A DNA stretch of 64,000 bases from Methanolobus zinderi (GTDB taxonomy: Archaea > Halobacteriota > Methanosarcinia > Methanosarcinales > Methanosarcinaceae): assembly GCF_013388255.1 (NCBI RefSeq), contig NZ_CP058215.1:1674001-1738000 (forward strand), read 5' to 3'. Every line of letters starts with the position of its first letter. Position 1 is the first letter of the stretch. Under the pieces are notes generated by a model that ran no database searches, had not been told where the DNA came from, and was given only the letters and a program-made list of their open reading frames with translations. Below, in pieces: positions 59,787 through 62,230 of this stretch. Both the position numbers and the translations under genes were made by a program.

Positions 59787-60161
59787 TTACTCTTCCGGCT
59801 CACCGAGATAGAGCTGGAGTTTTTTCTTGAAACCCTTAATATCTATTGGCTTTGAGATGTAATCAATACAGCCTGCCGAGATAAAACGCTCATCGTCCCC
59901 GCGCATGGAGTGGGCAGTCAGAGCTATGACGGGGATATCCTTGGTTGAATCCTCATTCTTTATTCTGGAAAGCAGCTCAAGACCGTCTATCCGGGGGAGT
60001 TGTATGTCCAGGAGAATAAGATCGATCTTCTCTTCCTGAAGTTTCTGCAGGGCAACAAAGCCATCTTCTGCCTGAACAACACCATAGCCATATGATTCGA
60101 GAAGGTCGACTGTCAGTTCCATATTAACAGGGTTGTCTTCAACCACAAGTATCTGTACCAT
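59787..60161 (-). CDS. stand-alone response regulator receiver
   Basis: 124 residues, CheY-like receiver only. Acidic pocket VVEDNP (about 6-11), phospho-acceptor Asp in LLDIQLPRIDG (about 53), Thr in ALTAHSM and Lys in ISKPIDI are all present. No output domain. No kinase gene adjoins, so the cognate partner is elsewhere; the kinase-like protein at 12758-14434 is the only other two-component part in the window. Convergent with the lipoprotein gene, 3 bp between stops. Confidence 0.92.
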   Translation of the reverse strand: MVQILVVEDNPVNMELTVDLLESYGYGVVQAEDGFVALQKLQEEKIDLILLDIQLPRIDGLELLSRIKNEDSTKDIPVIALTAHSMRGDDERFISAGCIDYISKPIDIKGFKKKLQLYLGEPEE

Positions 60162-60441
60162 TTTCTCAATTCCCGAATTGTTTTATGCTTACTGGATCCT
60201 GTAAATAAAACGTCAATAATAATTCTCAATTGTTACACATGAAAGCTTATATCTTTATAAGCCTTGCAAATAAAAAGCACAAAGGAATCATTATAGGTTC
60301 AATAATATATGCTGGACTTTATAATATATATAAATTTTCATTCAATTCAAAAATGCAGCAGGTATAAAATCTTAAAGATAATGTACAACTACAGGAACAG
60401 TAAATATACGGACAATAAAACCGATTCCAACAGGTGCTTAA

Positions 60442-61653
60442 TTGAAAAAAGATCATGATTTCTCGGACAGGGAAGTTCTCAGTATAATACAGAAAATACA
60501 CAAGTCCCGGTACAAAATTGTGCTCTCTGTTACCGGCGGTGGCAGCGGAGCCTTCTCAGAGTTACTTATGCATGGCAGTGGTTCTTCGACATTACTTGAG
60601 GCTATTGTACCATATAGTAAAAATGCTCTTGCAGAATTTATAGGGAAGGAGCCCGAAACCTACTGTTCCGAAGAGACCGCACGAGAGATGGCAATGGCCT
60701 CTTTTGAACGTGCCTTAAAGCTCTGTGACAAAAACACCGACACACACAGGATGATCGGAATCGGTGTGACCTGCAAGCTTGCGAGAAAGGATAATGAGAG
60801 AGAGGGAAGAGAGCATGATATCTACATTGCTTCCCAGTCAGCTACGCGAACAAGCACGGCTCATCTGAAACTTCTCGAAAACAGAAGCAGGGAGACCGAA
60901 GAAAAGATCAGCTCTTTATTCATTATACATTTCCTGGCGCAGCTTTGTGAAGTTGATGCCGGAAATATATTACCGCTTTCCATGATACCGGAGCTTGCCA
61001 ATACCGTTACCAGATCGGCAGAGGTCGGTGAAGAGATCGGAGAACTCCTTGTAAATACGCTTTTGCAGGGTGATGAGGCAAAAAAGCGGGCTATCAATCT
61101 CAGCAATTCATCAGATAATTCTCATCCAGAGGAAAGAATAGTTTTTGCTGGATCTTTTAACCCATGTCACAGTAAACATGTTGAAATTGCAAAAACAGCG
61201 TTCAAAAAATATGGATCACCTGTCTGTTTTGAGATCTCGCTTGCAAACGTCGACAAACCTCCCATTGACTTTATTTCACTGCAAGACAGAATGGATTCAC
61301 TCGGAAAATACAGTTCAGAGGAGTTCATGGGAGATATATATCTTACAAACGCCCCTTTTTTTGCAGACAAAGCTATACTGTTTCCTGAATCATGTTTCCT
61401 GATAGGAGCCGATACCCTGAACCGTACATTCAATGAGAGATACTACAGGGAAGGGGAAACAAAGGAAAGCCTGCTTGAACATTTCAGCTCAATGGGAATG
61501 CATTTTATGGTATTTCATAGAAAGAACATCGATATTGCCATGGATGATGACATAAGGCAGATTTTCAAAGTGGTCGACCTGAGTGAATACCAAGATGACG
61601 GCACATCTTCAACAAAGATCAGAAAAGGGAGAATACAGTCGGATCAAGCATGA
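60442..61653 (+). CDS. PncC-like/NadD-like fusion protein
   Basis: 403 residues, TTG start at 60442 with AGGTG six nt upstream. Residues about 1-210 resemble the CinA C-terminal/PncC nicotinamide-nucleotide amidase domain (VLSVTGGGSGAFSELLMHGS; VPYSKNALAEFIGKEP; CSEETAREMAMASFERAL; GIGVTCKLA). Residues about 230-400 are a nucleotidyltransferase of the NadD/NMNAT type, with HxGH-like loop AGSFNPCHSKHVEIA and ISSTxIR-like SSTKIRKG. The PncC step gives NaMN from NMN, which NadD-type enzymes adenylate, so a salvage fusion is plausible. The HxGH motif reads PCHSKH, so activity or specificity may differ. Confidence 0.75.
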   Translation: MKKDHDFSDREVLSIIQKIHKSRYKIVLSVTGGGSGAFSELLMHGSGSSTLLEAIVPYSKNALAEFIGKEPETYCSEETAREMAMASFERALKLCDKNTDTHRMIGIGVTCKLARKDNEREGREHDIYIASQSATRTSTAHLKLLENRSRETEEKISSLFIIHFLAQLCEVDAGNILPLSMIPELANTVTRSAEVGEEIGELLVNTLLQGDEAKKRAINLSNSSDNSHPEERIVFAGSFNPCHSKHVEIAKTAFKKYGSPVCFEISLANVDKPPIDFISLQDRMDSLGKYSSEEFMGDIYLTNAPFFADKAILFPESCFLIGADTLNRTFNERYYREGETKESLLEHFSSMGMHFMVFHRKNIDIAMDDDIRQIFKVVDLSEYQDDGTSSTKIRKGRIQSDQA

Positions 61654-62057
61654 TCTGCACCACAAATATTGTACAGGGAAGGAAAACCCTTTGATTCATA
61701 TGTCTTCATGATATCCCTGTCAAGTGCTGTGGATAACTTGCATAGTATTTCCTGGGACCTGACAATCCTTTCTACATCCATCTTATCCCACCTCTCACAT
61801 TTAATATTATCAAGGGTCTCAACTAGATGAGAGAATTCATCTGTCGCAAGACAGCAATCAAAACTGATACAATGTGAATCTCTTTCACAGTGGATAACCG
61901 TTCTGGATATGATTTCTTCAAATACCTGACCGTCAATTTCATGTTCGAACTGATGTTTTGAAGGTACAACGTCTTTATTATGATAGTGCACCTCTGCGAG
62001 AAACAGGAACCTGTCACAGTCGCATATCCATTCCCTTAAACTATAGAGCATATTCAT
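61644..62057 (-). CDS. hypothetical cysteine-rich protein
   Basis: 137 residues from MNMLYSLREWI (ATG 62063 and 62051 also possible). Cysteine- and histidine-rich, notably WICDCDRF, IHCERDSHCISFDCCLA and IKCERWDK, ending NICGADHA. Could bind metal. No family recognised. Its end overlaps the preceding convergent gene by 10 bp. Upstream (62058-62230) no promoter is obvious. Confidence 0.55.
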   Translation of the reverse strand: MNMLYSLREWICDCDRFLFLAEVHYHNKDVVPSKHQFEHEIDGQVFEEIISRTVIHCERDSHCISFDCCLATDEFSHLVETLDNIKCERWDKMDVERIVRSQEILCKLSTALDRDIMKTYESKGFPSLYNICGADHA

Positions 62058-62230
62058 TCCCACACCAGGATTTAGTAGGATTTCAAGTTATAAAAATCTA
62101 TTTTTGCTTAAAAAGAAGCATACAGTACCTTAATTTTATGAACAGTGAATAATCAGGTATTACAGGATTATTAACTGACCATCATAATTATGAAAGCATC
62201 ATACATGTATGAAAGCATAATAGAATATTC

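Follow-up and report, generated by a model that had tools for sequence, protein, structure and literature searches.

The gene examined here lies at positions 60442-61653 on the forward strand of a 64-kb stretch of Methanolobus zinderi DNA (hereafter the window) and encodes a CinA-like/NMNAT-like fusion protein of 403 aa. It is read from a TTG start to a TGA stop at 61651-61653, with a probable ribosome-binding site, AGGTG, on the same strand at 60432-60436, 5 nt before the TTG. No earlier start is possible for this open reading frame, as the codon immediately before the TTG is an in-frame TAA. The open reading frame is not due to chance: full-length orthologues, which also support the gene call, were found in 60 of 112 Methanosarcinaceae genomes and were absent from the other 52. 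Within the window no NAD gene stands next to the fusion gene, as the earlier note on this DNA had remarked. Two reverse-strand neighbours recur near the fusion gene in other archaeal loci, a gene without a Pfam match at 61644-62063 (19 loci) and a response-regulator gene at 59787-60161 (16 loci); both are conserved and neither has an evident role in NAD metabolism.

Pfam recognized CTP_transf_like (PF01467) at residues 234-395 with an E-value of 5e-8, above the cut-off, and CinA (PF02464) at residues 27-89 with an E-value of 0.006 and a score of 16.6 bits against a cut-off of 23.5. Among 43 homologues, 42 matched CTP_transf_like and 30 matched CinA (best E-value 7e-6). The protein falls well below the curated scores for both enzyme families, with 13.3 bits against a cut-off of 68.9 for PncC (TIGR00199) and 22.1 bits against 112.45 for the NadD equivalog (TIGR00482). 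An AlphaFold model built from the 43-row homologue alignment reached a pLDDT of 91.5 and a pTM of 0.92. When the model was compared to the PDB by Foldseek, the N-terminal half matched CinA structures (probability 1.00, TMt up to 0.72) and the C-terminal half matched NadD structures (probability 1.00, TMt up to 0.61), with PPAT and ATP sulfurylase ranking after NadD. This bears out the earlier proposal that a CinA/PncC-like N-terminal half is joined to a NadD/NMNAT-like C-terminal half. On the forward strand of the window, the model places the CinA/PncC-fold domain, with its sub-threshold Pfam match, at residues ~9-175 (60466-60966; matches to 6mr3, 5kol, 4ct8 and 2a9s), followed by a linker with two helices at residues ~176-229 (60967-61128), which is variable in the alignment, and the NadD/NMNAT-fold nucleotidyltransferase domain at residues ~230-403 (61129-61650; matches to 6buv, 4ymi and 5vir). 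No PDB entry among the matches listed spans both halves. CinA-cytidylyltransferase-like fusions with the identical domain order occur in plants. No description of the family was found in the published literature searched, and the plant locus names led to unrelated papers only.

The deamidase chemistry of PncC depends on a Ser/Lys dyad, and the phosphate of NMN is held by S48, Y58 and R145 (PMC5384747; PMC4246079). Residue equivalences were taken from a family HMM alignment to 4CT8 and 2A9S, with positions counted by hand. Leu63 of the fusion (60628-60630, forward strand, as are all residues below) aligns with and replaces the catalytic Lys, K63 of AtCinA and K301 of TtCinA; this position is Leu, Met or Ile in 43/43 cellular homologues and Lys in none of 43 viral fusions. 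The counterpart of the PncC ESxTGG block is S29-V-T-G-G-G34 (60526-60543), in which TGG is kept and the Glu is lost, being replaced by a hydrophobic residue in the cellular relatives. The nucleophile position is still Ser in the window protein; it is Ala in 8 of 12 archaeal sequences and mostly Ala or Val in bacteria. In contrast to this loss, the phosphate contacts are invariant in all 43 cellular and all 43 viral fusions. They are Ser48 (60583-60585), the counterpart of Ser48/Ser286 of AtCinA/TtCinA (PMC5384747, PMC4246079), Tyr58 (60613-60615), the counterpart of Tyr58/Tyr296, and Arg150 (60889-60891), whose equivalence to Arg145/Arg377 follows from its position in the domain. With the Lys lost, the Ser mostly lost and S48, Y58 and R150 kept, the fusion has thus lost the known deamidase mechanism while retaining a clamp for the mononucleotide phosphate.

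These residues bear directly on the reaction first suggested for the N-terminal half, deamidation of NMN to NaMN, for which the presence of the PncC active-site residues had been named as a check. In such a bifunctional PncC-NadD, the C-terminal half would then form NaAD, to be amidated to NAD+ by NadE. The CinA/PncC fold, the conserved phosphate clamp and the ranking of NadD as the best fold match of the C-terminal half all agree with this scheme, as does a host genome that encodes NadE and in which no separate PncC was found. However, the active-site residues proved largely missing: the catalytic Lys is absent from all 86 sequences, the nucleophilic Ser is rare and the Glu is hydrophobic in cellular relatives, and A. 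tumefaciens CinA loses its activity as either S31A or K63A (PMC5384747). NAMPT, the operon partner in the phage relatives described below, moreover makes NMN, which is already a direct NAD+ precursor. We consider a deamidating fusion highly improbable. The CinA-like half could instead carry out some other chemistry on family-specific residues, such as repairing or hydrolysing pyridine or other mononucleotides that have been damaged or modified, with the C-terminal half re-adenylylating the product. T79, M83, Q132, E154 and a GGG loop are invariant in the cellular members, a degree of conservation that would be surprising for a domain that merely holds a dimer together, but T79, Q132 and E154 vary in the viral members and no alternative catalytic pair was seen to be shared by the whole family. 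This alternative appears unlikely.

In the nucleotidyltransferase half the adenylyltransferase motifs are intact. The HxGH ATP-binding motif reads HSKH (residues 243-246; 61168-61179), with both His invariant in the family and the Gly changed to Lys; the NMNAT GxD motif is found at G322-A-D-T325 (61405-61416), and SSTKIR (residues 389-394; 61606-61623) is the counterpart of ISSTxxR. The HxxH, K272, GxD, R360 and SSxxxR positions are kept without exception in the 43 cellular fusions and in almost every one of the 43 viral ones. Compared with the NadD/NMNAT signature of the fold with HxGH and ISSTxxR, the protein thus has the fold and both motifs, as HSKH and TSSTKIR, with the Gly and Ile positions differing. 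The Gly of HxGH is Asn or Lys in 12/12 Methanosarcinaceae and Gly in 31/31 bacteria; outside Methanosarcinaceae it is replaced in one viral sequence only, by Arg. This substitution could alter activity in Methanosarcinaceae, but human NMNAT1 reads TNMH at the same site, and the change alone is no argument for inactivity. The earlier note had read PCHSKH and SSTKIRKG here and suspected altered function. Both stretches are present as read, and the suspicion of a defect is weakened by the two intact His residues, the intact SSTxIR and the TNMH of NMNAT1.

The fusion is not restricted to M. zinderi. Every one of the 26 further Methanolobus genomes tested has the gene, and across 295 genomes of the phylum the matches were confined to Methanosarcinaceae. 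In Methanosarcina its presence is patchy, and in one genome (G363) the fusion is split into segments at C1:2608747-2609697 and 2582883-2583158, 26 kb apart, a copy that is apparently broken. The patchy presence and the split copy agree with a dispensable role in salvage. In a GTDB scan, full-length fusions at 30-38% identity were also found in Planctomycetota and Gammaproteobacteria among the best 80 of 120 relatives; with only these kept and with archaeal sequences as the scan patterns, the sample understates cellular diversity. A plasmid tblastn search with the fusion gave no match. Of nine bacterial carriers, eight encode a canonical NadD that exceeds its cut-off and seven have a PF02464 match above the cut-off; the weaker second PF02464 matches in these genomes are probably the fusion itself. 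None of 80 cellular loci contains NAMPT, a Nudix partner or any linked NAD gene. Operon partners were sought in cellular genomes and none was consistent, the genes seen including esterases, cation efflux, EamA, ROK and FMO-like genes. In some Gammaproteobacteria, a short distance of a few genes separates the fusion from a gene for an 807-aa protein that resembles DNA photolyase domains in its N-terminal half and flavin amine oxidase in its C-terminal half (L109:285-2705; also L127 and L134). A flavin or antenna link through this gene was rejected, as the gene is limited to one gammaproteobacterial clade.

The 2.7-Mb host genome encodes NadM (TIGR01527, 257 bits), CoaD, NadE, NadC and PncB (TIGR01514, 420 bits), with possibly an aspartate dehydrogenase gene next to nadC; its NAPRTase-type enzyme is PncB and not NAMPT. 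It also holds a second, NadC/ModD-like phosphoribosyltransferase gene (L151; G000:C1:2586313-2586783), whose product scores below both family cut-offs and whose substrate is unclear. Since the host has NadM, the fusion is predicted to be a second, non-essential-looking adenylyltransferase. Across the 112 Methanosarcinaceae genomes, 58 carry both the fusion and an NAPRTase, 2 the fusion only, 29 the NAPRTase only and 23 neither, a co-occurrence that is suggestive and confounded by genus phylogeny.

Scanning IMG/VR with the family alignment yielded 64 viral loci on contigs of 10-530 kb, mostly with full fusions. At eight of these (L185, L186, L193, L202, L205, L209, L211 and L216) the halves are encoded by separate genes that adjoin or overlap, and a split N-terminal half from a viral locus was modelled with a CinA fold (pLDDT 86; best match 2a9s, TMt 0.71). 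Flanking genes belong to phage families and include major head protein, RNA ligases, ThyX, polynucleotide kinase and ribose-phosphate pyrophosphokinase. The GenBank phage collection gave only two matching records, metagenomic huge phages of 485 and 595 kb, the former with a full-length fusion, and in BFVD a Caudovirales protein matches the whole model (E-value 8e-22). Proteins of giant viruses in BFVD are also structurally similar to the model and are candidate members of the family: A0A3G4ZJY5 (Terrestrivirus), A0A5K0UAF4 (Yasminevirus) and A0A481YR20 (Marseillevirus LCMAC101).

The commonest neighbour of the viral genes is NAMPT (NadV), called by Pfam PF18127 and PF04095 and by NF006629 (up to 568 bits). 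In 24 of the 57 unique loci this gene is no more than 3 kb away from the fusion, and all 24 share its strand; a Nudix gene occurs in 20. When one NAMPT per contig was placed at random on 56 contigs, 6.9 such loci were expected, and 24 were reached in none of 200,000 runs. A search of 30 viral records with no NAMPT close by turned up an NAPRTase-family gene at another place on the contig in 14, in one case as a weak match. The earlier claim of a link to pyridine nucleotide salvage is thus upheld by the NAMPT and Nudix neighbours of the phage relatives; the NAMPT linkage itself is seen in those relatives and not at the window gene. At five loci a NadM-Nudix-like protein lacking HxGH (reading GRFQSDTVCY, GRFQRPTINP or APFQT...) is encoded beside the fusion or gene pair and NAMPT (L157:29-1135, L162:4061-5167, L164:439-1398, which equals L165:1805-2764, L168:4031-5143 and L186:4005-4889), and the fusion could provide the step missing from these proteins.

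It could be argued that the NAMPT linkage describes the phage branch only and that the fusion is a nucleotidyltransferase whose substrate is unrelated to NAD metabolism, such as an FMN-, phosphopantetheine- or sugar-phosphate-like compound. The NadM of the host and the canonical NadD of most bacterial carriers would make a further NMNAT redundant and would leave room for a different substrate in cells, and no NAD gene lies near the fusion in cellular genomes. Against this stand the ranking of NadD folds above PPAT and ATP sulfurylase, the NMNAT GxD and SSTxxR motifs, a CinA clamp of the kind known to hold NMN or NaMN, and the NAMPT linkage of the phage relatives. On this evidence we regard a non-NAD substrate as quite improbable.

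With the amidase residues lost and the phage relatives lying beside an NMN-making gene, the family probably consists of NAD-salvage enzymes rather than deamidases. We infer an adenylyltransferase activity, its substrate and a non-hydrolytic role of the CinA-like half. The most likely reading, held with moderate confidence, is that the fusion adenylylates NMN or NaMN and that its CinA-like half binds this mononucleotide but does not deamidate it. The reaction would be NMN and/or NaMN + ATP to NAD+ and/or NaAD + PPi. The CinA-fold half, having kept the Ser48, Tyr58 and Arg150 clamp and lost the amidase dyad, would most likely bind, hand over or sense NMN/NaMN, or hold the dimer together. In phages, NAMPT would supply the NMN that the fusion turns into NAD+; in the methanogen, the protein may act as a second, salvage-linked NMNAT beside NadM and PncB.

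A quick maximum-likelihood tree built from 81 fusions gathers the archaeal sequences into one group (support 94) and the bacterial sequences into another (support 97), both of them set among more diverse viral lineages. The cellular genes may have been acquired from viruses, which is put no more strongly because the tree is unrooted and the cellular sampling biased. Extending this, we tentatively suggest that the fusion adds a third kind of NMN adenylyltransferase to those of phages, one whose NadD-like domain has as its obligatory partner a CinA-like domain that holds NMN but is dead as an amidase. It would form, with NAMPT and Nudix, a variant NAD+-reconstitution module that may counter NAD+-depleting host defences, and the Methanosarcinaceae and bacterial genes would be viral descendants kept for NAD salvage. 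If true, a function would be gained for an uncharacterised two-domain family of methanogens, Planctomycetota, Gammaproteobacteria and large phages, the CinA fold would be seen to bind an NAD precursor and not hydrolyse it, and the phage NAD+-salvage repertoire would extend beyond NadM and NadR (PMC9503650).

The fusion family shares features with several known systems. With NadD/NMNAT enzymes (PF01467; M. tuberculosis NadD 6BUV, human NMNAT1 1KKU) it has the fold, HxxH, GxD and SSTxxR in common, but it scores far below the NadD cut-offs, carries an extra N-terminal CinA-like domain and has the HxGH Gly replaced in Methanosarcinaceae. With the PncC/CinA NMN deamidases (PF02464; 2A9S, 4CT8) it shares the N-terminal fold and three phosphate-contacting residues, whereas it lacks the Ser/Lys dyad, of which the window protein keeps the Ser, and the Glu of ESxTGG; the partner of the CinA fold is a nucleotidyltransferase in place of COG1058. 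Phage NAD+ salvage may also be compared with NARP1 (PMC12774641). In a published survey of NAD+ systems in viruses, NadM and NadR are the only NMN adenylyltransferases named for phages (PMC9503650). Phages with NadV and either of these resemble the loci described here in having NAMPT and Nudix beside an NMNAT-type gene, but in the fusion family that gene encodes a NadD-like domain fused to or paired with a CinA-like one, sometimes beside a NadM that has lost its HxGH.
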